Below are positions 16,109-36,580 of a DNA stretch of 64,000 nt, piece by piece. Position numbers and translations under genes: made by a program. Origin of the DNA: an uncultured Rhodospirillales bacterium (GTDB taxonomy: Bacteria > Pseudomonadota > Alphaproteobacteria > Acetobacterales > Acetobacteraceae); assembly GCA_903835235.1 (NCBI GenBank), contig CAILMF010000015.1:372001-436000 (forward strand), read 5' to 3'. Under the pieces are notes generated by a model. That model was given only the letters and a program-made list of their open reading frames with translations, ran no database searches and was not told the DNA's origin. Within the stretch, counting starts at the first letter, position 1. Each line of letters starts with the position of its first letter.

Positions 16109-17061
16109 CTACGGGCAATCTCCGGGAAGGCCAGGTAGCAGGCCGGATAGACCGGTGCGATCACCTTGGTCAGCTCCGCCACGATCTCCGGGTTACGCTC
16201 CAACGGCTTGCCTTCGAAGGTTTTTTCGTTGAGCGAAGAGAAGAGATCGGGAGTGCAGTCCAGGTTCAGGAATTCGTAAATATCCCGCAGCACGGCATAG
16301 GGCTCCTGGGCGATGCGCTTAAAGTCCAGCAGCAGGATTGATTCCTTGGGAAAGCAACGGAGGTAGTTGTGATAAGTCTGAGCGTAGTTTGAATAGACAA
16401 AGAAAAGATTGGATTTTTCTGCAAGGGTGCGGCGCTGTGCTTCCAGGGAATAGTCTCCCAATTCGTCCAACTCCATCCGGAAATGCGACCAGGCGCGCTC
16501 GATCGGGTTCCGGAGGATGAAGATGATACGGGCATGCGGGCTGATGCGCCGCATATGCGCCACCGCCGCGACCGGCAGGGTGGAATAGGAGGGCGAAACG
16601 TCGAAGGCCAACTGGTTGGAACCGCAATGCGCAAAGTTGGCTGCATACCAGGAATCGTCCACCACCCGGTCGCGATCAAGGTAGAGCGACTGCATTGCTG
16701 CGACATATTCCTCGGTCCAGAACTTCATGTTCTCGACCAAGGGCCGGAATACCGGATCGTCGCGGAATATCTGCCAAGTATACAGTCGCCGATCGAACGG
16801 CCACGGATTTCCTGGATAGATATGGACTTGATCGAAGTAGAAAAGCTCCTTGATGGCTGGTACCCAGCATTGCGGGTGCCAGGGCAACTGGTTCGCCAAC
16901 CAGGTCGTGCCAGCCTTCTGTGCGCCGATGATATAGACATCAGGCCCGCGTGGGACAGCGGGACCCACCAAGGTCACTCGTGCATTGCCCAGGCCCGAAT
17001 TGGTCCGCCAGTAGTTCTCCAAGGCAGCGATGCGGGGATCGATTTCCTGCTCACCGGCCAT
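16081..17061 (-). CDS. PAPS-dependent sulfotransferase
   Basis: A 326-residue cytoplasmic enzyme of the Sulfotransfer_1 type, expected to transfer sulfate from PAPS to a carbohydrate. The 5'-phosphosulfate loop is intact (YIIGAQKAGTTWLANQL, with the donor-binding lysine). The 3'-phosphate site is IIFILRNPIERAWSHFRM, with the usual RNP...S pattern. No signal peptide is seen. It sits in the glycan operon 21 bases after a second, degenerate sulfotransferase and overlaps the glycosidase gene. Base composition in its middle part is clearly less GC-rich than the surrounding genes, consistent with later acquisition. Confidence 0.88.
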   Translation of the reverse strand: MAGEQEIDPRIAALENYWRTNSGLGNARVTLVGPAVPRGPDVYIIGAQKAGTTWLANQLPWHPQCWVPAIKELFYFDQVHIYPGNPWPFDRRLYTWQIFRDDPVFRPLVENMKFWTEEYVAAMQSLYLDRDRVVDDSWYAANFAHCGSNQLAFDVSPSYSTLPVAAVAHMRRISPHARIIFILRNPIERAWSHFRMELDELGDYSLEAQRRTLAEKSNLFFVYSNYAQTYHNYLRCFPKESILLLDFKRIAQEPYAVLRDIYEFLNLDCTPDLFSSLNEKTFEGKPLERNPEIVAELTKVIAPVYPACYLAFPEIARSWTPELRAR

Positions 17062-17082: not shown

Positions 17083-18012
17083 CTAGCCCCGGGTCAGGCT
17101 GGGTTGCAACCAATCCACCAGCGTGGGGTCCAGTTGGTTAAACTCATCATAGACATAAGCAAGTTGCGCCTGAAGCCAAGTCACCGCGGCTGAGTTGCGC
17201 CCTGGCAACTGGGGAGAGGGCGGAGGCGCCGTATCGAACAGCGCAGGATGCCAGGCAACGCCGAGGAATTCGCACACACGGCGGAGCGCTGCGCCGGGTT
17301 GCTCGACCAGGCGCCGGTAGGTCTCGATGTGAATGCGATCGCCCCCCATGGTGCCACGCCACAGTCGGGTGAGGCGCGCCACGTCGGAATGGCACAGCAA
17401 CTGGCTACCGATACGGGTATGCAGCACCTGCAATATCGCCTGCTCGTCGTTGCTGGCAGCTATCTGCGCCGCATGCGCCAAGGCCCGTTCCACCGGGTCC
17501 CGCAGCAACAGGATGACTCGAACGCCAGGGCAGACCGAGGACAGATGGCGAATGCCGGCTCGCGGCAGGAGCAGGTTGTCCTGGCTCATTTCGCCAGTCA
17601 CTTGATCCGTCCCGGCAAAGCTGAATAGGCCGCGATACCAATCATCGGTGACATGCCCGGCATCCAGGTAGTCCAGCAGGCGATGCGCATCGGCGCGGGC
17701 TTCCGGGCGCCTGCCTCCGTGCTCTCGCCACCAAGCGCGCGCGGCCTGCACCTGGGCGCGGCGGCGCGGAGGTTCGGTAGGCGCCAGGTGCGGCAGGTAC
17801 AGCGAGGCGAAGTAGCTCAGTTCCGTGATCGGCGGTTGCCAGATGGAAGGATGAGCGAACAGCGCATTGGCCAGCCAATCGGCACCAGCATAGCGAGAGC
17901 CGATGATGATGAAATCCGGACCTGAGGCGGGTGCCGTCGGCCGCAGGAACGGCAGGCGTGGCTGGGTCACGAAATCGCGCGCAGCGTCATAGGACGTGCT
18001 TCCTGTCGCCAT
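17083..18012 (-). CDS. Sulfotransferase-like protein with altered PAPS loop
   Basis: A 309-residue homologue of the neighbouring sulfotransferase in layout. The first donor loop reads FIIIGSRYAGADWLANAL where the active paralogue has IIGAQKAGTTWLANQL. The lysine that contacts the transferred sulfate is a tyrosine and the GTT triplet is GAD. The 3'-phosphate motif is better kept: VILLLRDPVERALAHA. The flanking HVTDDWYRGLF block also aligns with VVDDSWYAANF of the neighbour. The fold is therefore retained but catalysis is doubtful. It could be a glycan-binding or accessory subunit, or use a different donor geometry. It starts at ATG 18012, 89 bases after the methyltransferase stop, the largest gap in the operon. 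Confidence 0.75.
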   Translation of the reverse strand: MATGSTSYDAARDFVTQPRLPFLRPTAPASGPDFIIIGSRYAGADWLANALFAHPSIWQPPITELSYFASLYLPHLAPTEPPRRRAQVQAARAWWREHGGRRPEARADAHRLLDYLDAGHVTDDWYRGLFSFAGTDQVTGEMSQDNLLLPRAGIRHLSSVCPGVRVILLLRDPVERALAHAAQIAASNDEQAILQVLHTRIGSQLLCHSDVARLTRLWRGTMGGDRIHIETYRRLVEQPGAALRRVCEFLGVAWHPALFDTAPPPSPQLPGRNSAAVTWLQAQLAYVYDEFNQLDPTLVDWLQPSLTRG

Positions 18013-18101: not shown

Positions 18102-18869
18102 TCAACCATCAGAAATATACCCGACCCGATCCTGCACCATACGGGAAGGATCACGTTGGTATAAATATATATCTCGATTGTAGGAAGAACCAAGGGCGCA
18201 CCGGGGGCGATGATTGGCCCAAAGATATGATTCCGGATGCACGATCGAAACCGGCGCCGGATATCGCCACAGCCTGGGCGCCGAGCGGTAGCGCCAGGGG
18301 GAGACGAAGAGCACCGCATTCTGCCGGTACCACCATGGTATCCGATGGTCGCGCCACAAGGCCGGCCGCAGGGCATCCACGCCGCGATAGCCATGGGCGG
18401 CGAACAGTTCGACCCAGAACTCCAGCCAAGTCTCGGCAATATGGCTGGTGCCGCCCTGATAGGGCAAGGCTGCCGAAAACAACACGGCTGCCCCATGCTG
18501 CACCAGGGAAGCCACCAGGGCTGGGGCAGTCTCGATCGGCAGGTGCTCCGCGACTTCCAGGCAGATCACCAAGCCAAAACGGCGCCCCAGCGCGAAGGGT
18601 TGCCGCAGGTCGTGCTCGATGAAGCGGTCGGCGGGCAGCAACCGCGCGGAAGCCGGCACATGCGGCCCATCCAGCCCCAGGGTGTGACGGGCACCGAGCG
18701 CCTCCGCCACCTTCAGCCACACCCCGGTGCCGCAGCCGACATCAAGCACGTCCCGCAGGCCTACCAGCCGGCGCGTCAGGCCGAGCATCGCCTCCGCGGC
18801 GGCGCGGCTTCCATCAACCTGGTCTTGGTAGAATCGAACATCGTACGGTTCGCCTGCGGAAGATGACAT
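18102..18869 (-). CDS. SAM-dependent class I methyltransferase
   Basis: A 255-residue protein starting at ATG 18869 (MSSSAGEPYD). The SAM-binding motif VLDVGCGTGVWL is at about residues 41-52. It is followed by an acidic residue in LGLDGPHV and by GLVICLEVAEHLP (motif IV and post-motif). This is the pattern of small-molecule and sugar O-methyltransferases of the UbiE/UbiG-like group. The C-terminal half (HRIPWWYRQNAVLFVSP, YLWANHRP) resembles glycan-cluster methyltransferases. It lies in the minus-strand glycan operon 17 bases downstream of a glycosyltransferase, so methylation of a sugar in the surface glycan is the likely role. Confidence 0.82.
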   Translation of the reverse strand: MSSSAGEPYDVRFYQDQVDGSRAAAEAMLGLTRRLVGLRDVLDVGCGTGVWLKVAEALGARHTLGLDGPHVPASARLLPADRFIEHDLRQPFALGRRFGLVICLEVAEHLPIETAPALVASLVQHGAAVLFSAALPYQGGTSHIAETWLEFWVELFAAHGYRGVDALRPALWRDHRIPWWYRQNAVLFVSPWRYRSAPRLWRYPAPVSIVHPESYLWANHRPRCALGSSYNRDIYLYQRDPSRMVQDRVGYISDG

Positions 18870-18886
18870 CGTCGCTGGACGCCGCT

Positions 18887-21178
18887 TCAGGTGACGTGCC
18901 GGGCTTGGCGATATTCGCCCATGACCGACCAGATGATCGCCCAACCGGGGTCGTTGGCCTGTTCGAAGGATGCAACCCGCCGGCGTGCCGCCTGCTGCAA
19001 CGTGCCGGTATCCTGCAACGCCCGGCGGAGCAGTTGCACCGAAGCGAATGTCCCGCCCGCCTCGGTCTGTTCCTGCACCTGTGTGGCGCGGGCACGCGCC
19101 ATTCCGGTGAACAGCCGAATTGTCGGCAGGCCCGAACGCGCGAAGGTCTCGATCAGGGCGGCATGATTGGCGCCGCTGGAAATATCCACCACCACCGCCG
19201 GGGCCGTGGCGTGGTTCCAGACGTCCCGGAAGTAGCTTCCGTGGTCGCGCAGCCGTATGCCGGGCAACCGAGGCGCCGGCTTTGCGGTAGCCGCTACCAG
19301 CAGGTCCATTTCCCCGACGCCGTACAGGCCGGCCTGTTCGCGCACCAAGGCCAGCAAGGGGTCGTCCGCCTCGTCCGCCAGCACCAGAACACCGTCGCGC
19401 CGGGCCCGTTCCAGGGCCCAAATGGCATAGGCTTGGTGGCCCTTGAACAGCATCGGCACCCGCAGGTGTTCTACCTTGGCGTTGCGCCGGGCCGCGCTGA
19501 CCGCGGGATGGTCGTCCCGCGACAGCACATGCAGCCGTTCCATGGCCTGGGCGAGGTTCTGCACCACCGCCGCGAAGTCGGCTGCCGGCCGTGCCTGGGT
19601 GAAGGCCTCGAAGGAGATGAAGGCCGGCATGGCCAGGCGGCGCGGCACGGCTTCCCCGGCCGGTGGCGCGCCAGCAAACCACAGCGCAGCATGTCCTTCC
19701 GCGGCCAATTCGGCAAAGCTGCGGCAGCGGATGTTCGGCCGCTGCAGCGCCGGGCCCAGCTTGGCCGCATGGCTGGCGTGCAGCCCTGGCAGCAGCACGG
19801 GCTCGCCGATCTGGCCCAGGCGGTAGATGGCATCGACATCGGCCGTGCCGTCCCATGCGCCGCCCAGGACGAAGTGGACCGGGCCCTGCCAGCCCAGGTA
19901 GCGGGCAACGTCGCAGGCATGGTCGAAGACCAGGGAGCCTGTACGCAGTTCGGCGACGTCAAGCACCACGCAGGCGCCCGGTTCCAACTGCCAGTACCGC
20001 TCGATGGTGCTGTCGAGGCTGTCGGCGACGGTACGGGCGGACGCGAGGGAGGCGACGACCGACGCCCGCTCCAACTCGACGATCCGCTCCGGGTTGGCCA
20101 CCACCTGCTTGCAGGCCCACATGCAGGCCTCGAAGTCCGGCAAGTGGTGGAAGTCGTGCGTGGGCTCGTAGCCCTCGTAGGCGTGGGCATGGGCGATCAG
20201 CGCCTTGCCCAGGTTCAGTGCCTCGCCGACCTTGATCTTGAGCCCGGTCGAGAAGGTCATCGGGGCCAAAACGACATCCACCTCCCGGTAGAAGTCGGCC
20301 ATGACCGGGACGCGCCCTATCAGCTTCACGAAGGGCGGCAGCGGATCATGCTTCAGGTCTTCGCAGCAACTGCCGGCGATGTGGATCTCCATCGGCAGCA
20401 GGGTCCGTTCCACGTAGTGGCGCGCGACTTGCAGGAAGCTACGTATATTGGTCAGATTGACGTTGTTCCGCGCCCCCACGATGCCGAAGCGCAGGATCCC
20501 GTTCGGCGGCACCGAGCGATTCAGCGGTCGGATCGTCTCCAGGTAAGGGACCGTGACCAAGCGACGCGAGGTGAGGGTGCGGAAGTATTCCTCTTCGTGC
20601 CGCTTGATGGCCCAGACCACGTCCGCGCGGTCGAGCGCGATCTTCTCCTGGTCTTCGGTAGTGTAGAAGAACTCGGGCGCCAGCCCGTTCTCCTCCAGCA
20701 GTTCGCGCCGGCCGGCGAAGCGGTCATGTGTGTCGAGCACCTTCAGTGTGGCGCGCGGCGCGAATTCCAGGGCCTTGCTGAGCCAGGTGTAGTTCACCAG
20801 CAGCACATCGAAGGACTGGGTCGAGAACAGCCAGTGCAGCATGTCGCCGATGGCCGGATCCCACCACTCGTCGATGCTGTGGTAGCGTCCGCCATCCGCC
20901 GGCGGCATGTGCAGCGGCTTGGTGACGGGCACCGTGTACAGCGCGTCCCAGCATTCCTGCATCACTCGGTTGGCCTGCAGCGGCGGGTTGCGCCGCCAGT
21001 CGCCTTCCGAGGCGTAGTGAACGTAGTGTACCTCGGCGCCGCGTGCCTTCAGGTCGGCGCAGACGAAATAGCCCCGCTTGCGGTTGCCATAGTCCAGTGG
21101 TTCGGTGGGCATCGGCGCCAGCACCAACACCTTCAGCCCGGCCCAACTGCCGGGACGCAGCGGCACAGGTTCAGTCAT
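18887..21178 (-). CDS. GT-B glycosyltransferase with long uncharacterised C-terminal half
   Basis: A 763-residue protein. The first 400 residues form a GT1/GT4-like GT-B enzyme: the N-terminal Rossmann strand GLKVLVLAPMPTEPLDYGN, then the inter-domain FGIVGARNNVNL and the nucleotide-sugar site PMTFSTGLKIKVGEALNLGKALI. The remaining 360 residues have scattered Rossmann-like strands (VLVLADEADDPL, VVVDISSGANHAALIETF) but no motif I can name. It could be a second, degenerate GT-B domain. The gene overlaps the upstream GT2 gene by eight bases. It is a cytoplasmic enzyme that probably adds one sugar of the island's glycan. Confidence 0.82.
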   Translation of the reverse strand: MTEPVPLRPGSWAGLKVLVLAPMPTEPLDYGNRKRGYFVCADLKARGAEVHYVHYASEGDWRRNPPLQANRVMQECWDALYTVPVTKPLHMPPADGGRYHSIDEWWDPAIGDMLHWLFSTQSFDVLLVNYTWLSKALEFAPRATLKVLDTHDRFAGRRELLEENGLAPEFFYTTEDQEKIALDRADVVWAIKRHEEEYFRTLTSRRLVTVPYLETIRPLNRSVPPNGILRFGIVGARNNVNLTNIRSFLQVARHYVERTLLPMEIHIAGSCCEDLKHDPLPPFVKLIGRVPVMADFYREVDVVLAPMTFSTGLKIKVGEALNLGKALIAHAHAYEGYEPTHDFHHLPDFEACMWACKQVVANPERIVELERASVVASLASARTVADSLDSTIERYWQLEPGACVVLDVAELRTGSLVFDHACDVARYLGWQGPVHFVLGGAWDGTADVDAIYRLGQIGEPVLLPGLHASHAAKLGPALQRPNIRCRSFAELAAEGHAALWFAGAPPAGEAVPRRLAMPAFISFEAFTQARPAADFAAVVQNLAQAMERLHVLSRDDHPAVSAARRNAKVEHLRVPMLFKGHQAYAIWALERARRDGVLVLADEADDPLLALVREQAGLYGVGEMDLLVAATAKPAPRLPGIRLRDHGSYFRDVWNHATAPAVVVDISSGANHAALIETFARSGLPTIRLFTGMARARATQVQEQTEAGGTFASVQLLRRALQDTGTLQQAARRRVASFEQANDPGWAIIWSVMGEYRQARHVT

Positions 21179-22238
21179 CGCGTTCGCCCAGGCCGCTGAG
21201 CAGCGCGATCAAGGCGCCGTATATCGACGACATCTGCCAATTTAGGTCACCAGCCGAGGCTTGTTCGATGGTGAGCGCGCGCAGCGTGCGCAGGTGCGGC
21301 GGCTGATGCGCGAGGAACACCTTCACGTCCCGCCAGCGATTTTCGCAGCCATCGCGCATCACGGCCGGGGAACGCACGTAGTCCGAAACCGCCTGCCAGG
21401 CGATGCGACGACGGAACCACTCCTGATGCAGGCGCGACGGATCGACGCAATGGTCTACCCCGGCATGCGGCGCGTAGCCGATGCGCCCGCCGGCCGCCTC
21501 CAGCCGCTCCGCCAACTCGGTCTCGTCGTTGGACATCAGCGAGATGCCGGAGCCGATGCGCCCCAGCGCCGGGCTGAAACCGCCGACCTCGCGCAGCTTG
21601 TCGACGCGATAGGAGACATTGGCGCCCGCCACCCATTCGCCGGCACCCAGGAAGCGGGTGTCGCCGCCATTCTCCACCACCGACAGGTAGCCGAGCAGAT
21701 TGTCGGAAAGCCACTCGGGGCGCTCGCCCAGGAAGCGAGGCCGTACCCGCCCGCCAATGCCGTAGGCGGCCTCGCCGAGCGTCTCGTAGGCTTCCAGCAA
21801 TTTCACCAGCCAGTTCGGGTCGGCGAAAGCGTCGTCGTCCAGGTAGGCGATGAGAGGCGCGCGCGCCATGCGCATCGCAACATTGCGGGCGTTGGAAAGC
21901 CCTGGCGTCGCCTCATAGTGCCAGATGAGGTTGCCGATCTGCGCGTATTTGGCGGCTTCCTCCGCCGAACGCCCGGGGTCGGGGGAGTTGTCAACCACGA
22001 CGATCTCGAACTCCGCCGCCGGCAACTCCTGGCGGGCGAGCGAGGCGATCGAGTCCACCAGATAGGCGTAGCGGTCGTAGGTGCAGATCGCCACGGTGAT
22101 CCGCGGCCCTGCGGGCGGCGGGGGCGGCGGCGGTGCCTTGGGGCTGTCTTCAGAGGCGGCCGCGGCGGCCGGCGGGAGCGGGGCGGTGCCCTTCGCGCGT
22201 GCGGGCGCGACGTCCCGCCGCTTGGTCGGCGTCTTCAT
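21171..22238 (-). CDS. Family 2 glycosyltransferase
   Basis: A 355-residue GT-A fold enzyme. A 45-residue Ala/Pro/Lys-rich leader with a run of seven prolines precedes the catalytic domain. That domain shows ITVAICTYDRYAYLVDSI, FEIVVVDNSPDP, the divalent-metal motif IAYLDDDAFADP and the GAGEWVAGANVSYRV acceptor region. A conserved HxxR-type stretch (VDHCVDPSRLHQEWFRRR) follows. It is the second gene of the minus-strand glycan operon, 31 bases after the coiled-coil/beta protein and overlapping the next glycosyltransferase. No transmembrane helices are evident, so it acts at the cytoplasmic face. Confidence 0.9.
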   Translation of the reverse strand: MKTPTKRRDVAPARAKGTAPLPPAAAAASEDSPKAPPPPPPPAGPRITVAICTYDRYAYLVDSIASLARQELPAAEFEIVVVDNSPDPGRSAEEAAKYAQIGNLIWHYEATPGLSNARNVAMRMARAPLIAYLDDDAFADPNWLVKLLEAYETLGEAAYGIGGRVRPRFLGERPEWLSDNLLGYLSVVENGGDTRFLGAGEWVAGANVSYRVDKLREVGGFSPALGRIGSGISLMSNDETELAERLEAAGGRIGYAPHAGVDHCVDPSRLHQEWFRRRIAWQAVSDYVRSPAVMRDGCENRWRDVKVFLAHQPPHLRTLRALTIEQASAGDLNWQMSSIYGALIALLSGLGERDD

Positions 22239-25137: not shown

Positions 25138-27690
25138 ATGTCGTCAGGGGTCTCGAACCGCATGAGGCCGCCGGAACGGCCCGCCAGGGCGCCCGGCCCG
25201 CCGCCCATTGCCTCTCACATCCTGCTGACCCTTGACCAGGCGACATCCACGCGGATCAGCGGCTGGGCCTATGCCCCCGCGGAACCCGACCGGCATGTCA
25301 GGCTGAGCCTCTACAACGGCCCGGCGCATCTGGTCAGCTTCCACGCCGCTACCTTTCGCGAAGACCTGCGGGACGCGGGCATGGGCAATGGCGAACATGG
25401 CTTCAGCCTGGTAATCCCACGCCACATCGCCGAGCGCCCGGTGCTCGACCTGCGCCTGGTCGATGAGGACAGCGGCACCGAACTGGCGACGGTTTCCGTC
25501 ACCGGTGGAGAGGAGCGCTTCGAGGCGCTCAGCGATGCCCTGCTCGGCAACCTGCCGCATTTCCTCTCCGCCATCGAGGACAAGACCGAGCGCCTCCGGT
25601 CGGCGCAGCAGCATCTGGCACTGCTGATGTCGGCGACCGTCGCCACCTATGGGCAGACCCGCGCGCTGCTGGAAGAAGCCGCGGTGGCATGCCATGCCAT
25701 GGAGGCCGAGAACCCGGTGCCGCCGCCGGAAGCGGTGCCTTTCGACCGCATCGTCAGGAGTGTCGTCGGGCGCTATCCGGTCCTCAGCCTGCCGCGCTGC
25801 GACAACCCCCAGGTCTCGATCGTCATCCCGGTCTTCAACAACTTCGAATACACCTACAACTGCGTGAAGTCGCTGCTGACCACGCAGAGCCGGGCGACCT
25901 TCGAAGTCATCATCGTCGATGACCAATCTAGCGACGAGACGCTGCTGGCCCCCATGCTGCTCGCGGGCGCTACGGTGCTGCGCAACGAACGCAACCAGGG
26001 CTTCGTCCTGGGATGCAACCGTGGCGCGGCCGCGGCGAGGGGCGAGTACGTCTTCTTCCTGAATAACGACACCGAGGTCCACGACTTCGCGCTCGATGCC
26101 CTGCTGGATGTCTTCCGCCTGCATGCCAGGGTCGGCATTGCCGGTTCCAAGCTGCTGTTCGGCGACGGCACGCTGCAGGATGCCGGTGGGATCGTCTGGC
26201 GCCTGGGCGATGGCTGGAACTACGGTCGCGGCCAGGACCCCGGCGACCCGCGATTCAACTACCTGCGCGACGCCGACTACCTTTCCGGCGCCGCCCTGAT
26301 GATTCCGAAGGCGCTGTGCGACGAAATCGGTGGCTTCAACCCCGAACTTGCGCCGGGGTACTACGAGGATACCGACATGGCGTTCCGCGCGCGGGCCCTG
26401 GGCTACCGCACGGTCTACCAGCCCCGCAGCGTCGTTACGCATTTCGAGGGCGCCTCCTCCGGCACCGACGTGACGCAGGGCATGAAGCAGTACCAGCTGG
26501 TGAACGCCCGCAAGTTCCTTGCCATCTGGAAGCAGGAACTCCTCGGCCATGCACTCAGCGGCCAGGAACCGGATCGGGAGAAGGATCGCAAGGCCCGTTT
26601 CCGCGTGCTGTTCGTGGACGCCACGACGCCGACGCCGAGGGAAGACGCCGGGTCCAACGCGGCGCTGAGCCATATGCGGGCCCTGCAGGCCCTGGGCGCC
26701 AAGGTCACCTTCGTGCCGTCGGATAACATGGCGCATCTGGGGCAGGTGAGTGCCGACCTGCAGGACCTCGGCATAGAGTTCCTGCATCACCCGTACTTCT
26801 GGTCGGTCGAGGAGGCGCTGCGCAAGCGGGCGCACGAGTTTGACGTCATCTACCTGCATCGCTACGATGTTGCTTTCCGCTACATGGCAACCTGCCGTGC
26901 CTTCGCGCCCCGGGCGCGCATCCTTTACAACGTGGCGGACCTACACTTCCTGCGGCTGGAGCGGGAAAGGAAAGTGGGTGCCGCCAGCGCCAGGACCGAG
27001 GCGGAGGTGGCGATGGTCCGCAATCAGGAACTCGGCTGCATCCGCTTGGCCCACCGCGTCATCGTCCACTCCGAGGTGGAAGCCGCCATACTTGCCCGCG
27101 AAGGGGTTTCGCATGTCAGCGTCATCCCCTGGGTGATGGAAGGCAGGCCGGGGCCGCTGCCGCCGGAGCGGCGAGGCCGGACCGTCGGCTTCCTCGGCGG
27201 CTTCGGCCATCCCCCAAATGCGGATGCCGTCGCCTGGTTCGTCGAGGAGATCTGGCCGCTGGTCCGCGCCGAGGTGCCGGACGCCGAATTCCTGATCTTC
27301 GGTTCCCGGATGCCTGCGGAGATCCAGGCGCTGAGCAGCCTGCCCGGGGTGACGCCGGTGGGTTTCGTCCCGGAGGTGGCCGACGCCTTCGCGCGCATGC
27401 GGGTGAGCGTGGCGCCGCTGCGCTACGGCGCAGGACTGAAGGGCAAGGTCGGCGAGAGCCTGGCCCATGGCGTGCCCTGCATCGGCACCAGCGTGGCCTT
27501 CGAGGGTTTTGGCCAGAACTTCCGGGAGGCCTGCGTGGCCGACGACGCCAAGGGAATGGCGGCGAAGCTGGTGCGCCTGCTGACCCATAACGGCGCCCTG
27601 GCGGGCATCGCCGCCAGAAGCAAGGCCTATGCGGTCGAGCATCTCTCGGCAAACGCGGTGCAGTCGCTGATCGCGGCGGCGATCAGCTAA
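25138..27690 (+). CDS. Two-enzyme glycosyltransferase: beta domain, GT2 and GT4-like domains
   Basis: An 850-residue protein. Residues 25-120 form a beta-rich domain with the pattern R-x-DL...G-x-G...GF (FREDLRDAGMGNGEHGFSL), seen at the front of glycan-modifying proteins. A helical/coiled segment (about 135-190) follows. The GT2 domain (about 222-460) has VSIVIPVFNNFEYTYN, VIIVDDQSSD, metal-binding FFLNNDTEV and GYYEDTDMAFRARALGY. The GT4-like domain (about 490-850) has VLFVDATTPTPREDAGSN, IVHSEVEAAIL, VGFLGGFGHPPNADAV and PLRYGAGLKGKVGESLAHGVP. Two successive sugar additions by one polypeptide are implied. A GGAG site lies 11 bases before the ATG. Confidence 0.9.
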   Translation: MSSGVSNRMRPPERPARAPGPPPIASHILLTLDQATSTRISGWAYAPAEPDRHVRLSLYNGPAHLVSFHAATFREDLRDAGMGNGEHGFSLVIPRHIAERPVLDLRLVDEDSGTELATVSVTGGEERFEALSDALLGNLPHFLSAIEDKTERLRSAQQHLALLMSATVATYGQTRALLEEAAVACHAMEAENPVPPPEAVPFDRIVRSVVGRYPVLSLPRCDNPQVSIVIPVFNNFEYTYNCVKSLLTTQSRATFEVIIVDDQSSDETLLAPMLLAGATVLRNERNQGFVLGCNRGAAAARGEYVFFLNNDTEVHDFALDALLDVFRLHARVGIAGSKLLFGDGTLQDAGGIVWRLGDGWNYGRGQDPGDPRFNYLRDADYLSGAALMIPKALCDEIGGFNPELAPGYYEDTDMAFRARALGYRTVYQPRSVVTHFEGASSGTDVTQGMKQYQLVNARKFLAIWKQELLGHALSGQEPDREKDRKARFRVLFVDATTPTPREDAGSNAALSHMRALQALGAKVTFVPSDNMAHLGQVSADLQDLGIEFLHHPYFWSVEEALRKRAHEFDVIYLHRYDVAFRYMATCRAFAPRARILYNVADLHFLRLERERKVGAASARTEAEVAMVRNQELGCIRLAHRVIVHSEVEAAILAREGVSHVSVIPWVMEGRPGPLPPERRGRTVGFLGGFGHPPNADAVAWFVEEIWPLVRAEVPDAEFLIFGSRMPAEIQALSSLPGVTPVGFVPEVADAFARMRVSVAPLRYGAGLKGKVGESLAHGVPCIGTSVAFEGFGQNFREACVADDAKGMAAKLVRLLTHNGALAGIAARSKAYAVEHLSANAVQSLIAAAIS

Positions 27691-28220: not shown

Positions 28221-29247
28221 ATGGGCAGGGCAGCAGCAGCGATTGAGTTGACGGCCGTTGAGCGTCGGGAACTGGCATCGCTGGCGCGGGCGCGCAAGAC
28301 TGGTCAGGCGATGGCGCGGCGGGCGCGGATTGTGTTGGCCGCGGCGGCGGGGCTGGAGAACAAGGCAATCTGCACCGAGGTCGGCGCGGACGCCAACACG
28401 GTCTCGAAATGGCGCCGCCGCTTTGCGGCCCATCGCCTCGATGGGCTGCTGGATGGTTGGAAGCACTGTTTCCAACCGCCCTGGAACACCGCGAAAGATC
28501 GGTGATGACAGCGTCGCTGAAACCATCCGCCTGACCCTGGAGACGACGCCACCCGGTGCCACGCACTGGTCGCTGCGCGCCATGGCCAAGGCGGTGGGCT
28601 ATGCGCCGTCCACCATCCATCGCATCTGGCGGGCCTTCGGGCTGCAGCCGCACCGGAGCGAGACCTTCAAGCTCTCGACCGACCCGCTGTTCGTCGAGAA
28701 GGTGCGCGACATCGTCGGCCTCTACCTGACCCCGCCCGAGCGGGCCCTGGTGCTCTGCGTGGATGAGAAGTCGCAGATCCAGGCGCTGGACCGCACCCAA
28801 CCGCTGCTGCCGATGCGCCCGGGCCAGGTCGAGCGGCGCACCCACGACTACACCCGCCACGGCACCACTTCGCTGTTCGCCGCGCTGGACGTGGCCACCG
28901 GCGCGGTGATCGGCCGCTGCTACCCGAAGCACCGCTCCAGCGAGTTCAGGAAGTTCCTCGACCAGGTCGAGGCCAATGTCCCGGCTGACCTCGACGTCCA
29001 CCTGGTCATGGACAACTACGCCACCCACAAGACCAAGCCGGTCCGGGACTGGCTGGCCAAGCGACCGCGCTGGCATGTCCATTTCACGCCAACCAGCGCC
29101 TCCTGGATCAACCAGGTCGAGCGCTTCTTCGCCCTGATCACCGAAAAGCAGATCATGCGCGGCGTCCACCGCTCAACACAGGCCTTGGAGCGCGACATCC
29201 GCGCCTTCATCGACGCCCACAACGCCGATCCCAAGCCTATAACTTAG
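28221..29247 (+). pseudogene. IS630 family transposase, frameshifted and 3'-truncated
   Basis: The N-terminal helix-turn-helix part is read in one frame from ATG 28221 ([38 protein letters not shown]). The catalytic part continues in another frame ([19 protein letters not shown] onwards). DDE residues are present in [24 protein letters not shown] and [10 protein letters not shown]. The frames separate at about 28455-28477, where a small hairpin has replaced the expected few codons. The 3' end is lost after [11 protein letters not shown], where sequence switches abruptly to an IS481-type fragment. It is therefore very probably inactive. Confidence 0.85.
28455..28477. repeat. Small perfect hairpin at the IS630 frameshift point
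   Basis: GGTTGGAA (28455-28462) and TTCCAACC (28470-28477) flank a 7-base loop, exactly where the transposase frame is lost. Compared with the protein expected in this family (LLDEPRPGTPRK), the DNA has a net surplus of about 16 bases here. This is consistent with a local palindromic insertion. Confidence 0.6.
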
Positions 29248-29679: not shown

Positions 29680-30894
29680 ATGGTTGGCATCGACTACCTT
29701 CGGTCCATGGCCGCCCGTCAGTGGCTTCAGGCACGCGCGCAGGAACCGGTCCACCGCGACGACAACGTCTTCGCCCTGCTGTTCCGCCTGCGCGTCGCCG
29801 AACGTCTCGGCGATGTCCAGGCCATGACCGAGTTGCTGCCCCGCCTCGTCCCCTGGGCCGCCCAGTTGCCGGCGGCTGGCAAACTGGTTGAGGTGGTCCG
29901 GGAGACGCTGCAGAAGCTGCCGGCGACCCTGCCGGAAGCCAAGGGGGCGGCCTACGGCCGAGCCCTGATGGACGCCGGCCGGATCCAGGAGGCCTGGGAG
30001 TATTGGCAACGCCAGGAGCACCCGAGCCTGGCGGAGGAGCGCAGGGTCAGGCTGGCTACCCTGGCGTGGCGGCTGGGCGAGTTCGAGGCGGCGATCGATA
30101 ATCTGCGGGCGCAGGGCAGCGAGAGCAGGCTGTCCCGCAACTCGGCCGAAATGATCCGCCGCTACGAGGAGAGCTTGGCCGAGGCGGGCAAAGTGCACGC
30201 GATGGAGATCCATCAGTTGCCGCTGCCCGCCGTGCGCCAACTGGCCGCCCGCATGCGGGAGAAGCCTGCTGCAGCGACACCGGATCTCGCGGCGCTGGCG
30301 CAGGCATGGGGCGAGTTCTCCGGCGACTGGTCGATGGCCGTCAGTTTGCTTTCAGAAGCGGAGGCGGCGGCGATCGCCTCGCCAGTGCTGGGCGCGCGGC
30401 TGGCTCCATTGGTTTCCTCGAAGGAATTCGCCTCAGCCAAGGTTGCGCCAAAGGCTTTGGAAGCCCTGCTGGCCGCCTGCCGTGCGGCAGGCGCAATGGC
30501 GGCCGTGGCCACGCTGGAGGCACGACTGGCCAGCGCCGTGCCCGCCCCCAGCCCGGCCCTGGCGCCATCTGCCGAGCCGTCAAAACCCGCCGCGGAGACG
30601 AAGCTGGAGATGGCGTCCGTCGTCGCCGCCATCCTGGCCAAGCCACCGGCGCCTGCGCCAGTGGAGGCGAAACCGGCCGCGCCTGTCGCGGAAGCGGACC
30701 GTGCGCCGGCCGACAATGCGAAGGCGCAGTCGGTCCCGAGCAAGTCCAAGTCCGCCCCGGCGAAGCCCGATGGCGCGCCCGCCGCCCCGGCCAAGCCGGC
30801 CAGAGCCAAGGCCGCGTCGGCGTCCGACAAGCCCAAGGCAACCGCCCCGGGCAAGCCCAAGCCCGCGGCTGCCCGACGCCCGGGCGGCAAGTAG
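29680..30894 (+). CDS. Helical-repeat (TPR-like) protein with Ala/Lys/Pro-rich tail
   Basis: A 404-residue protein with an AGGAG site slightly far (about 13 bases) from the ATG. Residues 1-290 are almost all helical with TPR-like pairs (LFRLRVAERLGDVQAMTEL, YGRALMDAGRIQEAWEYW, RLATLAWRLGEFEAAIDNL). Residues 290-404 are a low-complexity tail rich in alanine, lysine and proline (SKSKSAPAKPDGAPAAPAKP) resembling histone-H1-like or cell-wall-binding tails. There is no signal peptide. It sits between IS wreckage and the giant glycosyltransferase, 95 bases upstream of it. A scaffold for glycan enzymes is plausible, but nothing in the sequence proves it. Confidence 0.7.
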   Translation: MVGIDYLRSMAARQWLQARAQEPVHRDDNVFALLFRLRVAERLGDVQAMTELLPRLVPWAAQLPAAGKLVEVVRETLQKLPATLPEAKGAAYGRALMDAGRIQEAWEYWQRQEHPSLAEERRVRLATLAWRLGEFEAAIDNLRAQGSESRLSRNSAEMIRRYEESLAEAGKVHAMEIHQLPLPAVRQLAARMREKPAAATPDLAALAQAWGEFSGDWSMAVSLLSEAEAAAIASPVLGARLAPLVSSKEFASAKVAPKALEALLAACRAAGAMAAVATLEARLASAVPAPSPALAPSAEPSKPAAETKLEMASVVAAILAKPPAPAPVEAKPAAPVAEADRAPADNAKAQSVPSKSKSAPAKPDGAPAAPAKPARAKAASASDKPKATAPGKPKPAAARRPGGK

Positions 30895-30989: not shown

Positions 30990-33900
30990 ATGCCATCGAC
31001 ACTCGCTCCGGCCGGCTTGCTGGCAGGGCAGCCGCAGCGGGTTCGCGTGGGCTTGCGAAACGAAACTGCCACCCCCTGGTCGCGCGAAGGCGCTGGTGCG
31101 ATCAGCCTGCACGCCCAGCTGGTGCAGCCCGGCGCCTGGCAGCCGCTGGACCATGCCATTGACATCCAGCAGATGGCCGATATCCCGGCCCTTGGCAGCG
31201 GCGACGCGGTGGCCGAGCTGCCGCCGCTGCCGGCCGGCGCCTACGAGTTGCTCACCCGCATCCGATTCGGCGAGGCGGCCTGCGGCATCGCCACGACGCC
31301 CCTGTTGGTGTTGCCCGCCGCCGACTACGCCCAGGGCCGTGTCGAACTGGCCGAGGACTTGCCGCCGCTGCCGGCCGGTGCCCGCGTCACCCTGCCAGTG
31401 CGGCTGACCAACCTCTCCGCCGTCGCCTGGTTGCGCTGGCCGCACCGGTTGCAGCTCTGGGCCCGGCTGGGGGAGGAGCGCGGCGTCACCCCGGTAATGG
31501 TGGATATCGAGCCGGGCGGCGAGGCCATCATCGGCATCGATCTCGTGCTGCCGCCGACGCCCGGCCGGCACCGGTTGCGGCTCTCGCTCACCCGGCCGCG
31601 TACGCTCGTCTTCGCCGAGCATGCAAGCTTCCAGGCCGCGCCGCCGATGCTGGAGCTGCGCCCGCCGGGCCAGATGGAACTCGCCCCGCGCTTTCAGCCG
31701 CGCGACCCGGTGCAACTGTTGCTGCTGGCCGGGCAGGAAGCGCTGGGCGTGGTCGGCCAGCCGGTGGCGGTGAAGCTGGTACTGCAGAACGAGGGCCCCG
31801 GCGCCGTCGACCTGCGTGGCCTTGCCCTCGCCCGGCGAGGCGCCGAGGCGACGGAGCGGCGCGAGGTGCTGGAGGCCAGCATCGCTCCTGGAGGGCGGCG
31901 CGCCTTCGAGGTCATCCTGCCCCCGCCAGCCCAGCCGGCGCAGGAGGAACTGACCGTCACCGCCCTGGTGCGGTTGCGCTTCGGCGAGGAGCAGGAGGTG
32001 GCGCTGGGCGGTCTGCCGCTGCGGGTGCAGCCGGCGCTGCTGCCGCTCGCCTTGGCCGTGACCGCGTTGCAGCAGGACCATCCGCCGCTGCTGGGAGAGG
32101 AGGAGCAGCCCGCCGCCTTCCGCTTCCTGAACGAGGGCGACGCGGCGATCCAGGGCAAGGGAGTGGACGCCTTCAGTGTCAGCCAGCGTTGGACTCGCCT
32201 GGATGAGAAGCGCCCCGCGCAGTATCGCGGCGGCCAACGGGTGCCGCTGGAAATCGACAGCGGTGCGGCGGCGGTAGTGGCCCTGGCCCTGGCGCCGCCG
32301 CCCGATACCGGCCTCTACAAGCTGGAAATCGTGGTCTTCCGCCAGCCGGAGGACACCTGCCCGCGCGAGGAAGCGCGTTGCGAGGTGGGCGAGTACCGCG
32401 TCAGCCGGGTGCGCGAACTGGCCTTCGCCGAGGAAAAGCTGCGCCGCCGCGCGCTGGCCGCCGCCGCCGAGCAGAGCGGGCGCCTGGCCTACCGCGCCTG
32501 GTGCGAGACCGCCGATAGCCTTGCCGGCACGGCGCTGGAACGCGCCCTGGCGCTGCCTGTAGCTTGGCCGCACCGCCCGTTGGTCTCCGTGCTGCTGCTG
32601 GCCGAGGGCTCGACGCCGGAGGCGATTGGGTGCACGGCCGAATCGCTGCTGGCCCAGGTCTATCCGCATTGGGAACTGCGGGTCGCGCATGGTCGCGGCG
32701 GCAAGCTCGCCTTGCCAGCCGACTCGCGCATCCTGCCCTGCGCAGCTTCGGCCAGGGGGCCGGCGGCGCTGCTGCGCCATGCTGCCGGCAAGGCGGAGGG
32801 CGAATGGCTGCTCTGGCTGCGCCCTGGCGACCGGCTGGCCCCGGCGGCGCTGCTGCTGCTGCTGGCGGAGGCGCTGCGTCGCCCCGCCCTGCGGGCCGTC
32901 TATTCCGACCGCGACGCGCTGGGCGAGGATGGCGGGCGCTGTGCCCCGGCGCCGCTGGCGGATTTCGACCCGGATTTCGCACTGGGCGCCGACGGCCTTC
33001 TGCATGGCGCGCTGGTGGCGGCGGATTCCTTCCACACCGCCCTGGCGGCGCTGCCGGCGAACAGCCCCCTGCCGGCGCTGGATTGGCAACTGCGCCTGAT
33101 GGAAGCCTTGCCGGAACAGGCCATCGGACACCTGCGCCATGCCCTGCTGCACCTGGGCGCGCCGCTGGAATTACCGCCCGCCGAATGGTCCACAGCGGCG
33201 GCGCTGGTGGCGGCGCACCTGGCCCGGCGAGGCCAGCCGGCGCGGGTGATGCGCGCGCATGACGCGCCCTGCTTCCGCCTGGAATTCCCGCTGCCGGCCC
33301 CTGCGCCGCGCGCCAGCATCCTCATCCCCACGCGCGACGGCCTGGCGCTGCTGGCCGCCTGCATTGGAAGCATCCTGGAACGCACCGACTACCCGGACTA
33401 TGAGATCATTGTTGTCGACAATGGCTCCACCGACCCGGCGACGCTCGCCTACCTGGCGGAGCTCGAGGCGCGCTGCCAGGCGCGCATCCTGCGCGACCCA
33501 GGCGACTTCAACTGGGCGCGCGCCAACAACGACGCGGCCCGTCTAGCCACGGGCGACGTCCTCTGCCTGCTCAACAATGACACCGAGGTGTTGGACCGCG
33601 GCTGGCTGCGCGAGCTGGTGGCGCAGGCCTGCCGGCGAGAGATCGGCGTGGTGGGCCCGGCGCTGTGGTACCCGAACGGCCTGCTTCAGCATGGCGGCGT
33701 GATGTTTGACGCCATGGACGGCCGCCCGGTGCACATGCTGTTGCAGGTGGAACGCGCCGCGGTGCCTTCCCGCATGCGGCTGGCGCGGCGCTGCAGCGCC
33801 GTCACCGGCGCCTGCCTGGTGGTGCGGCGTGAGGTCTACGAGGCGGTCGGCGGCATGGACCAGGTTCATCTGCCGATCGGTTACAACGACATCGATTTCT

Positions 33901-35000
33901 GCCTGCGCGTCCGCCACCAACTGGGCCTGGCCACGCTGTGGACGCCCTTCGCGGAACTGCTGCACAAGGAAAGCGCCTCTCGCGGCACGCCGCGCACCCA
34001 GCAGGACCGCGACCGTCACCAGCGCGAATTGGCGGTGTTTCGGGGCCGCTGGCGCGACGCCGCCACCGCCGACCCCTTCGCCGACGCCACGCTGCTGCCC
34101 ATGGTGGGGGAACGCGCGCCGCCGCCGCCCGGCGTTGCCACGCGCTACAACCGCGCCCGGCTGCCGCGCCGGCGTCCGCTGCTGTTCCTGCATCTGCCGC
34201 GCAGCGCCGGGGTGACGCTGCGCGACACGCTGCGTCGCGATTCGCATGGGCTGGCGGTGGCGGACCTCTCGCCGCGCCTGCTGCTGGGCGAAGCGGGCGA
34301 GGAACTCCGCGCCCTGCTGGCGCCGCTGGACGTGTTGGTGGCGCGCTGCGGCCCCGGCTTCGGCGCCGCGCTGGGCTGGGGCGCGGTGCCGGCGGTGGTG
34401 CTGCGCGACCCGGTGGCGCGCGTTGCCTCCCAGGCACGCTTCCTGCGGGAGGATGCCTGTTCCCCGCTGCGCGACGCCGGCCTGGCCGAGGCCACGCTGG
34501 AGGTGCTGCTGAAGAAGGGCGTGCTGCGCGGCAACCTGGCGGTGCACCGGCTACTGGGCGAGGCGCCGGAGCCGGTAGACTGGGCCGAGGTGGACGGCAT
34601 CGGCGCCGAATACGCCGGCTTCCATCTGCCCCCGGCGCTGTGGCGGCGCGACCCCGCGGCGCTGCTGGCCGCGCCGGACAGGGCGCCTGACGACGACATG
34701 GCACTGGTGGACCGCGCCATGGCGCTGCTGGAGCGCGACTTCGCCTTCGTCGGCCAGCAGGATGCCCTGGCCGAACACCTGGGCGCGCTGCTGGAGGCGC
34801 TGGGTGGCGAGGCGCCGCGCGTGCGGCTGCACCTCAACCGGGGCGGCGAGCTTTGCGCCGCCCCGACCCCTGGCGAGGCCGCGCTGCTGGTCGAGTGGAA
34901 CCGTCTGGACATCGCGCTGCTGGAACGCGTTCGGGCGCTGCCGGGCGGGATGCTGCTGCGGCCGGAACGCCTGGCTACCCGGCCTCGTGACGGTGCTTGA
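30990..35000 (+). CDS. Giant fusion: beta-sandwich repeats, two GT2 modules and a sulfotransferase-like domain
   Basis: A 1336-residue protein without signal peptide. Residues 1-470 contain three or four immunoglobulin-like beta modules (LAGQPQRVRVGLRNETATPW, ARVTLPVRLTNLSAVAWLRW, GQPVAVKLVLQNEGPGAVDL). Residues 525-740 resemble a GT2 domain with weak motifs (PLVSVLLLAEGSTPEAIG, AVYSDRDALGEDGG). Residues 770-1010 are a full GT2 domain: ASILIPTRDGLALL, IIVVDNGSTDP, metal motif LLNNDTEV and LPIGYNDIDFCLRVR. Residues 1055-1280 have a sulfotransferase pattern, with donor loop LLFLHLPRSAGVTLRDTL (usual HIPKTAGT, here R for K) and VVLRDPVARVASQARF. It probably extends and sulfates the same glycan. 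It starts at ATG 30990 behind GAGAGG. Confidence 0.85.
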   Translation: MPSTLAPAGLLAGQPQRVRVGLRNETATPWSREGAGAISLHAQLVQPGAWQPLDHAIDIQQMADIPALGSGDAVAELPPLPAGAYELLTRIRFGEAACGIATTPLLVLPAADYAQGRVELAEDLPPLPAGARVTLPVRLTNLSAVAWLRWPHRLQLWARLGEERGVTPVMVDIEPGGEAIIGIDLVLPPTPGRHRLRLSLTRPRTLVFAEHASFQAAPPMLELRPPGQMELAPRFQPRDPVQLLLLAGQEALGVVGQPVAVKLVLQNEGPGAVDLRGLALARRGAEATERREVLEASIAPGGRRAFEVILPPPAQPAQEELTVTALVRLRFGEEQEVALGGLPLRVQPALLPLALAVTALQQDHPPLLGEEEQPAAFRFLNEGDAAIQGKGVDAFSVSQRWTRLDEKRPAQYRGGQRVPLEIDSGAAAVVALALAPPPDTGLYKLEIVVFRQPEDTCPREEARCEVGEYRVSRVRELAFAEEKLRRRALAAAAEQSGRLAYRAWCETADSLAGTALERALALPVAWPHRPLVSVLLLAEGSTPEAIGCTAESLLAQVYPHWELRVAHGRGGKLALPADSRILPCAASARGPAALLRHAAGKAEGEWLLWLRPGDRLAPAALLLLLAEALRRPALRAVYSDRDALGEDGGRCAPAPLADFDPDFALGADGLLHGALVAADSFHTALAALPANSPLPALDWQLRLMEALPEQAIGHLRHALLHLGAPLELPPAEWSTAAALVAAHLARRGQPARVMRAHDAPCFRLEFPLPAPAPRASILIPTRDGLALLAACIGSILERTDYPDYEIIVVDNGSTDPATLAYLAELEARCQARILRDPGDFNWARANNDAARLATGDVLCLLNNDTEVLDRGWLRELVAQACRREIGVVGPALWYPNGLLQHGGVMFDAMDGRPVHMLLQVERAAVPSRMRLARRCSAVTGACLVVRREVYEAVGGMDQVHLPIGYNDIDFCLRVRHQLGLATLWTPFAELLHKESASRGTPRTQQDRDRHQRELAVFRGRWRDAATADPFADATLLPMVGERAPPPPGVATRYNRARLPRRRPLLFLHLPRSAGVTLRDTLRRDSHGLAVADLSPRLLLGEAGEELRALLAPLDVLVARCGPGFGAALGWGAVPAVVLRDPVARVASQARFLREDACSPLRDAGLAEATLEVLLKKGVLRGNLAVHRLLGEAPEPVDWAEVDGIGAEYAGFHLPPALWRRDPAALLAAPDRAPDDDMALVDRAMALLERDFAFVGQQDALAEHLGALLEALGGEAPRVRLHLNRGGELCAAPTPGEAALLVEWNRLDIALLERVRALPGGMLLRPERLATRPRDGA

Positions 35001-35389: not shown

Positions 35390-36580
35390 ATGGACATCTG
35401 GTTACATGTCGGTACCGGCAAGACCGGAACATCTGCGGTGCAGGTGGCGCTTTCCCGGCATCGGGCCGCGCTGGCGCAGGCTGGGCTGGTCTATCCGGAG
35501 GGCATCGACGATGAACGCATGGCCCTCGCCGGCGGCATCACCTCTGGCAACGCCAAGCGGATGGGTTGGTTGATGACACCAAGCCTCCAAGTGCCGGCTT
35601 ACGACCCTTCGGCCGTGCTGCATTGGCTCGACAGCGCGCTGGCGCAGGCTGCCGGGCGGACGTTGCTGCTCTCCTCCGAAGCCCTGCAATGCCCCGACCC
35701 CGAGGCGGCCGCTCCGGTGATGCAGCGCTTGCGCGCGGTCGGACGCGTGCGGGTGCTCTACCTGGTTCGCCATGCCCTGGACCACGCTGTCGCAAGCTAC
35801 GCGCAGGCACTCAAGGTGGGTGAAACGCCGGAGCGTGGCACCGATCTCGCCAGCTTTGTGGCCCAGGCGGAGGCACCGTTCCGCGATCAACTGGCGACGT
35901 GGGAAACCATTCTCGGTGGCACCGAGGGAATGCTTTGCCTGCTCTACGAGAGCGAGTGTTTGGGCGCGGGTCTCACACATAATCTGCTGCGCCACATCGC
36001 CCCCGCCTTCGCGGCCGCGCTGCCGCGGGACGCAGCGCCGGAAGCGGTGAACCGCAGCCCGACCGGGATCGAACTCGCCATCTATGAGAAGCTGGCGCGA
36101 GTGGCGCCAGAGGCGGCTAGGTGGCTCACCCGGGCAGTGATGAACGCACCGCCGGCCATGCCGGCCCAGGTGGTCGTGCCGGATGTCGCCTTCGAAAGTT
36201 TCGCGCGGCTGAACCAGCCTGTGGTGGATGCGGTGAATCACCGCTACTTCGCTGGGCAGCCCGTTTTGCGGCTGACCTCCGGGCGCATCCCGGTTGGGCC
36301 GGTCACGCCTTGGCCCCAGGAGGCGATGGTGGAGACCAGCGTCGCCCTGTTGCGCGCCCTGGCACAACCCCCCGCCACGCCGCCGCCGCCGCCGGCAATG
36401 CCGGCCAGGGTGGAGCCTGCCGGGTTGGAGCAGCGTGCCCGGCACCTGGCCCGGGTTGGCAAACTGACGGAAGCCATCACTGTGCTCGACGCTGCCCTGG
36501 ACGAGACCGGCCCAGACGGCCAGGCCCTGAGACAGTTGCGGGATCACCTGCGACGCAGGGCTCGACGTCTGACGGGCTGA
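35390..36580 (+). CDS. Sulfotransferase-type P-loop protein with C-terminal TPR-like segment
   Basis: A 396-residue protein starting at ATG 35390 behind AGGAAAAGG; the long in-frame extension upstream is low-quality sequence. The donor loop is IWLHVGTGKTGTSAVQVAL, with K and GT residues in the sulfotransferase position. VRVLYLVRHALDHAVASYAQ fits the 3'-phosphate site. A proline-rich linker (PPATPPPPPAMPA) at about 325-340 leads to a short TPR-like pair (LARVGKLTEAITVLDAAL). Proteins of this type are usual in Acetobacteraceae and rhizobial surface-glycan loci. It closes the island before the IS66 remnant. Confidence 0.8.
   Translation: MDIWLHVGTGKTGTSAVQVALSRHRAALAQAGLVYPEGIDDERMALAGGITSGNAKRMGWLMTPSLQVPAYDPSAVLHWLDSALAQAAGRTLLLSSEALQCPDPEAAAPVMQRLRAVGRVRVLYLVRHALDHAVASYAQALKVGETPERGTDLASFVAQAEAPFRDQLATWETILGGTEGMLCLLYESECLGAGLTHNLLRHIAPAFAAALPRDAAPEAVNRSPTGIELAIYEKLARVAPEAARWLTRAVMNAPPAMPAQVVVPDVAFESFARLNQPVVDAVNHRYFAGQPVLRLTSGRIPVGPVTPWPQEAMVETSVALLRALAQPPATPPPPPAMPARVEPAGLEQRARHLARVGKLTEAITVLDAALDETGPDGQALRQLRDHLRRRARRLTG

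Follow-up and report, generated by a model that had tools for sequence, protein, structure and literature searches.

Can one bacterial polypeptide both extend a glycan and sulfate it? The question is raised by a gene in a 64,000-nucleotide stretch of DNA from an uncultured Rhodospirillales bacterium (GenBank assembly GCA_903835235.1, contig CAILMF010000015.1, positions 372,001 to 436,000; hereafter the window), in which a frame on the plus strand (30990..35000) opens with ATG and runs for 1336 residues with no internal stop. A sequence-only reading had described its product as immunoglobulin (Ig)-like repeats, a weak and a complete family 2 glycosyltransferase (GT2) domain and a C-terminal sulfotransferase (ST)-like domain, a fusion that would couple chain extension to sulfation. 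Our analysis finds four related repeats, a degenerate first GT2 domain (GT-A1), an intact second one (GT-A2) and a C-terminal ST fold, in that order. We consider it reasonably probable that the protein is a single active glycosyltransferase, GT-A2, which bears a dead GT-A1, Ig-like repeats and, in this species, a pseudo-sulfotransferase, the equivalent ST domain probably being active in two congeners.

The frame is a real gene rather than a chance one, because the congener G015 encodes a 1335-residue orthologue (48% identity) and because the G+C content at third codon positions is 0.85–0.89 across all four parts of the gene; the same evidence, with the intact open reading frame, bears out the single 1336-residue polypeptide of the sequence-only reading. 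The G015 orthologue aligns with query residues 11–1329 (whole-query search of 249 family genomes; C-terminal locus in CANBNK010000132.1, an Acetobacteraceae metagenome-assembled genome). The same domain order is found in a second congener, G106, where the fusion lies in two pieces on two contigs (query 10–567 and 586–1332), each reaching the contig end (C-terminal locus in CAIMOR010000113.1, a Rhodospirillales metagenome-assembled genome). It is found also in G401, of another genus, as a 1407-residue frame (L052:556-4779, with a true start possibly further inside) that aligns over its whole length at 37% identity. Since the G015 and G401 orthologues are co-linear with the fusion, a missed frameshift is excluded. 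An artefact in which assembly or frameshift error joined separate genes has next to no probability: two or more of the relatives come from metagenome assembly, but nothing was found that positively supports such an error, and the order and co-linear alignment recur in the assemblies of two other species.

The fusion is rare: sampled searches found it in four genomes, of which three belong to one genus and the fourth to another. The genome draws were overlapping samples in which only the best few candidates per genome were scored (two for the whole query; nine for the ST profile A2 in the family; six for the Ig profile, for A2 in the order and for the class search; eight for the neighbour-gene search of 200 genomes; ten for the canonical ST profile in the family), and absences hold at that depth. 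Profile A2 matched three of the six genus genomes and, at E ≤ 1e-6, eight of the 249 family genomes, comprising the three fusions (E < 1e-140) along with five partial matches, all of them weak, to ST frames outside the fusions. At E ≤ 1e-8, five of 395 order genomes were matched, namely the three fusions, G401 (2.4e-69) and a 281-residue ST frame (4.9e-9), and among 385 class genomes the genome of the window alone was matched. The Ig-part profile matched three of the 249 family genomes, all of them fusions, and a plasmid collection held no match to the ST part or the Ig part of G015. No second copy of the fusion was found in its own genome, where two other matches cover the GT2 part only. The protein would be soluble and is probably cytosolic; its hydropathy, averaged over 19 residues, nowhere exceeds 1.54.

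The sulfotransferase domain and its active site

The evidence supports the view that residues 1052–1336 (34143..34997, plus strand) are homologous to bacterial sulfotransferases and adopt a predicted P-loop ST fold. Profile comparison by hhalign of the C-terminal part with six other bacterial sulfotransferases, selected with a filter that permitted K or R at the position of the loop lysine, gave a probability of 99.3% over 221 columns; four of the six (L054, L055, L057 and L058) pass the PF03567 cut-off. The profile of these bacterial sulfotransferases (A8) in turn found heparan sulfate 2-O-sulfotransferase (HS2ST; 3f5f, E 1.2e-9) and HS6ST (5t03, E 8.7e-8) in the PDB, with its GH motif aligned to that of HS2ST. 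An AlphaFold2 model of residues 1052–1336, built from a 20-row alignment that includes 17 sulfotransferases from viral contigs, reached a pLDDT of 79.7 and a pTM of 0.82. Its best structural match in the PDB is HS2ST (Z 14.7, rmsd 4.0, 229 residues aligned), the enzyme to which the sequence-only reading had likened it; the second is again HS2ST (14.4), followed by HS6ST (12.4), NDST and the 3-O-sulfotransferases (about 10). The ST-like domain claimed earlier thus stands, on the profile and the model, with Pfam silent in this copy. Fifty-four viral-contig loci (L060-L113) encode relatives of these sulfotransferases, many with a start like LYFLHIPKTAGKF; the GH motif is retained in the 17 that were aligned.

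Several results weigh against so clear an assignment. Neither Pfam nor NCBIfam matched the C-terminal part of this copy; for PF03567 (cut-off 22 bits) there was no match here, and the scores were 18.6 bits in G015 and 17.3 bits in G106. When the PDB was searched by hmmsearch with nothing but the fusion rows, no sulfotransferase came up, and for this reason the clear bacterial sulfotransferases were aligned first, after which the profile found HS2ST. A model built from the three fusion rows alone was not usable (pLDDT 40.3), and the better one is not independent of its alignment, because 17 of the 20 rows are canonical viral-contig sulfotransferases; the prediction does give a P-loop ST fold, one about which the alignment itself brings information. 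Unrelated P-loop folds reach a Z of about 8 (VIA table), and HS2ST, the sole Foldseek match at E ≤ 0.001, has an E of 9.9e-4 and a TM of 0.46. The fusion's own ST alignment had no match in the viral contigs scanned. PF03567 had none in the genome of the window, a result that carries no weight, as it had none in the control genomes either.

Two residues on which catalysis would depend are replaced in this copy. At the position of the lysine in the loop that binds 3'-phosphoadenosine 5'-phosphosulfate (PAPS), alignment with relatives places Arg1071 (34200..34202, plus strand), as the sequence-only reading had observed; G015 and G106 have lysine, G401 has glycine, and lysine is present in all six bacterial relatives and in all 17 viral-contig relatives, in the latter by construction, as the search pattern held PKTA. 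At the position of the catalytic histidine of the GH motif, which we take to be His142 of HS2ST, stands Arg1119 (34344..34346, plus strand), a loss absent from the earlier note. Here G015 and G106 have histidine and G401 has asparagine, and the residue is histidine in 6/6 bacterial and 17/17 viral-contig relatives, where it lies outside the search pattern. The P-loop Gly1074 is conserved in this copy, and the 3'-phosphate site is kept as Arg1139 and Ser1147 (34404..34430, plus strand): the arginine is conserved throughout the copies and relatives compared, the serine equivalent is kept save in G401 (Ala), and both are present in 17/17 viral-contig relatives. The two nucleotide-site motifs claimed earlier are therefore half retained, the 3'-phosphate site being kept and the PAPS loop carrying arginine for lysine. 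With both the loop lysine and the catalytic histidine replaced by arginine, the proposed coupling of extension to sulfation is not supported for this copy; it could still hold in G015 and G106, because both catalytic residues are present there.

These alignments and the model suggest that the ST domain of this copy is probably a folded pseudo-sulfotransferase that has lost catalytic activity, and that those of G015 and G106, which look intact, are probably working PAPS-dependent enzymes. A precedent by analogy is the His142-to-Ala mutant of HS2ST, which is apparently folded and binds PAPS and heparin with an activity below 1% (PMC6094399). In identity to this copy, the ST domains of G015 and G106 stand at 49–50% and that of G401 at 40%. 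Since the first two have kept both residues and resemble this copy more than G401 does, the simplest reading would be that the double loss of lysine and histidine arose separately in this species and in G401.

A coupled synthase, with the ST domain active in this copy too, the PAPS phosphate bound by Arg1071 and a different residue acting as base, is improbable. The retention of Gly1074, Arg1139 and Ser1147, the modelled fold and the 50% identity to the ST domain of a congener with intact motifs are all consistent with it, and in its favour, and so against a dead domain, an arginine may partly replace the loop lysine and some other side chain may act as base. Against this, both catalytic residues have been lost together, where all six bacterial relatives keep the lysine and histidine and all 17 viral-contig relatives keep the histidine; the low activity of the HS2ST histidine mutant (PMC6094399) points the same way.

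The pattern of substitution was compared by the NG86 method as the ratio of non-synonymous to synonymous change (dN/dS). Between G015 and G106 every part looks constrained, with a ratio of 0.31 for the Ig part, 0.27 for GT-A1 (over the 182 codons that are the only part of it present in G106), 0.13 for GT-A2 and 0.25 for ST. When this copy is set against G015, the values are 0.69, 0.67, 0.43 and 0.77, respectively, close to saturation and not to be leaned on in either direction. The two comparisons agree, weakly, with all parts being functional in G015 and G106 and with a constraint on the ST domain that may be looser or changed here. A decay in progress, with selection relaxed on the ST domain or even on the entire gene and no present role left for it, is an unlikely alternative: the ST domain has the highest ratio against G015 (0.77, compared with 0.43–0.69 elsewhere, all near saturation), and a transposase gene lies near the fusion here and a transposase-like one, by eye, in G015. 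Yet the 1336 codons contain no stop or frameshift, third-position G+C in the ST part is 0.89, the GT-A2 motifs are intact, and the more distant G401 copy, which is without the same two residues, is nevertheless full length.

The glycosyltransferase pair, the repeats and a proposed role

GT-A2 (residues 769–1040; 33294..34109, plus strand) is the complete GT2 domain that had been described, PF00535 matching residues 776–892 at E 6e-22 (78.8 bits, cut-off 23.3). Its motifs VDNGS (809), LNNDT (861) and YNDID (965), the nucleotide, DxD-like and general-base motifs, agree with those of the tandem family; they read [VI]DNGS, LNNDT and YNDID in this copy and G015 and VDNGS, LNDDV and FNDAD in G401. 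GT-A1 (residues 528–768; 32571..33293, plus strand) is undetected by Pfam in this copy. It was recognized by a hidden Markov model of canonical first domains of tandem GT2 proteins (i-E 2.1e-19 over residues 530–773; 5.1e-32 in G015 and 5.4e-37 in G401) and by profile comparison (100%), which identifies the weak first module of the sequence-only reading as a relative of those first domains. Its DxD site reads LRPGD here, LAPGD in G015 and LDPRD in G401, the canonical form being [LM]D[HQ]DD.

Twenty-seven tandem GT2 proteins of the family were compared with this pair, one locus per best-scoring genome with the fusions left out, a choice that leans towards this query; in one of them, L008, a stop interrupts the matched stretch. 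Eleven carry D-x-D-D in the first domain and 16 lack it, the three fusions compared (this copy, G015 and G401) falling with the latter, and N-[NSD]-D is kept in the second domain of all 27. A weak first GT2 is a common state of the tandem GT2 type and hence not special to the fusion.

Residues 9–473 form four related repeats, each probably a beta-sandwich and probably Ig-like, encoded on the plus strand. Repeat 1 (residues 9–110; 31014..31319) matches repeat 4 by profile at 86.1%, repeat 2 at 31.2% and repeat 3 at 5.7%; repeat 2 (112–222; 31323..31655) matches repeat 4 at 95.4% and repeat 3 at 89.0%; repeat 3 (228–348; 31671..32033) matches repeat 2 at 89.0% and repeat 4 at 71.7%; and for repeat 4 (350–473; 32037..32408) the matches are those just given. 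Twelve controls, in which the repeat profiles were set against the other three domains, all gave 2.2% or less. Their kinship is thus recovered as the sequence-only reading had it, and their Ig nature rests on the Ig-like model PF16158 (N_BRCA1_IG), which passes only in G401. There the N-terminal part scores 29.3 bits against a whole-protein cut-off of 28, with no single stretch passing E 0.1 and the best one (435–514 of that frame) not significant alone. In this copy the score is 13.3 bits against the cut-off of 28, with a weak stretch at 165–209 below cut-off. NPCBM_assoc reaches 20.1 against 24.4 in the N-terminal part of G401, again with no stretch significant alone, and a PDB search with the Ig part returned nothing convincing.

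From the homologies, the conserved order and the residue losses that were computed, we infer activities, acceptors, localisation and roles for the repeats and dead domains as follows. The fusion would be a glycosyltransferase for surface glycans, built on the tandem-GT2 type that is common in the family and extended by four Ig-like repeats at the front and an HS2ST-like domain at the back. GT-A2 is most likely the sole catalytic domain; with a nucleotide-sugar as donor, it would add a single sugar to a glycan that is lipid-linked or growing. GT-A1 would be a retained, catalytically dead GT-A fold that acts as a scaffold or acceptor clamp, and the repeats would provide a spacer or docking array. 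In the two congeners the C-terminal ST domain is probably PAPS-dependent and may sulfate the just-added sugar or cap the chain; in this species it most likely persists, its fold kept, as a pseudo-sulfotransferase holding glycan and perhaps PAPS or its desulfated product (PAP), and sulfation, if any, would be performed in trans by stand-alone sulfotransferases of the surrounding glycan island. The earlier suggestion that some modules are structural is supported by this picture. A more specific proposal, to which we give a low probability, is that the dead ST domain is a reader: it would keep a pocket for PAP(S), glycan or both and gate GT-A2 by donor supply or chain sulfation, a role that two lineages would have reached separately, with sulfation itself retained in the congeners.

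Should the fusions of the congeners prove active, the union of a GT2 enzyme and an ST in a single polypeptide would directly indicate the sugar at which a bacterial surface glycan receives its sulfate. Intact and lost catalytic residues within one genus would also amount to a natural experiment on how a glycan-modifying module becomes a pseudo-enzyme or scaffold.

Genomic surroundings

The fusion lies in a glycan island that extends from about 14.7 to 36.6 kb of the window. At its edge, on the minus strand, is a gene resembling glycoside hydrolase family 39 by domain match (14747-16108), followed on the same strand by two adjacent Sulfotransfer_3 genes (16081-17061 and 17083-18012; PF13469, both over the Pfam cut-off with E-values of 1.7e-19 and 8.4e-15), a methyltransferase (within 18102-19856), a GT4 (18887-21178) and a GT2 (21171-22238). 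On the plus strand, domain matches identify a single protein with GT2 and GT4 domains (25138-27690) and, inside the island, an IS630-like DDE_3 transposase (28258-29247). Directly before the fusion, also on the plus strand, is a 404-residue protein with an Ala/Pro/Lys-rich tail (29680-30894) that matches no family at the thresholds used.

Adjoining the fusion downstream is a stand-alone P-loop ST-like protein of 396 residues from its ATG (35390..36580, plus strand; weak Sulfotransfer_1 match, E 0.12), whose frame opens at GTG 35087 and whose P-loop, HVGTGKTGTS, has the lysine. Homologues aligning from about the ATG at 35390 are present in six of 200 family genomes, its own included; at E ≤ 1e-15 neither G015 nor G106 yielded one. 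That this gene compensates for the lost ST activity is suggested by its absence from those two congeners, yet this is a single case, and by eye no such gene is among the listed frames of at least 250 residues beside the G401 fusion; we did not adopt this explanation.

The gene neighbourhood of the fusion is not conserved among this copy, G401, G106 and G015, which also counts against our interpretation. GT2/GT4 and methyltransferase genes lie about 6 kb downstream of the fusion in G401, a transposase-like gene accompanies it in G015 and housekeeping-like genes in G106 (both by eye). As the neighbourhoods differ, context alone leaves the substrate unfixed.

Related fusions and known systems

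Among known systems the fusion comes close to the tandem GT2-GT2 proteins found in its own bacterial family, which are co-linear with its residues from about 499 to 1035 (core at 528–1040). The whole query matched 220 of 249 family genomes at E ≤ 1e-10, among the matches listed mostly through the tandem GT2 part. The degenerate first domain is common to the fusion and many of these proteins. Unlike in the fusion, no more than 59 residues follow the matched region in the 27 compared, and hence they have no C-terminal ST.

The canonical ST profile matched 76 of 249 family genomes. In other genomes of the family an ST of the same class is fused to another domain (L151, L152 and L155), and the partner is a methyltransferase, not a GT2. 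Pfam identifies the partner in L151 (3914-6880) and L155 (2787-4430, FkbM type); that of L152 is like L151 by eye. Two GT2 models had no match at E ≤ 0.01 in eight long non-fusion ST frames (at least 632 residues; eight of nine were read, with the G216 frame left out), and the lengthy segment ahead of the ST in L153, L156 and L158 resembles untranslated frame. As a fusion partner of ST, GT2 is thus a rare state in the sampled family genomes. The congener G161, in which the fusion was not found, has a 707-residue frame with a sulfotransferase (L154 888-3008, minus strand; HIAKTAGTS), the later half of which resembles an S-adenosylmethionine-dependent methyltransferase by eye, with no Pfam match.

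The sequence-only reading knew of no characterized protein with this architecture, and we found no GT2-sulfotransferase fusion described in the openly licensed literature; the component families are known, and their combination is rare and not found described. With HS2ST (3f5f, 4ndz) and the bacterial Sulfotransfer_2-type enzymes the fusion shares the fold, the P-loop glycine and the arginine and serine of the 3'-phosphate site. Unlike them, this copy is without the loop lysine and catalytic histidine, is fused to GT2 domains and is undetected by PF03567. ORF6 of Klebsiella pneumoniae O7 resembles the fusion in being a single polypeptide in which a module that modifies (terminates) the glycan is joined to two of the GT2 type (PMC11231755). 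It differs in that its modifier is an N-terminal methyltransferase-kinase, a coiled coil lies between, and both GT2 modules are reportedly required (PMC11231755); in the fusion the modifier is a C-terminal ST fold and GT-A1 is without a DxD.

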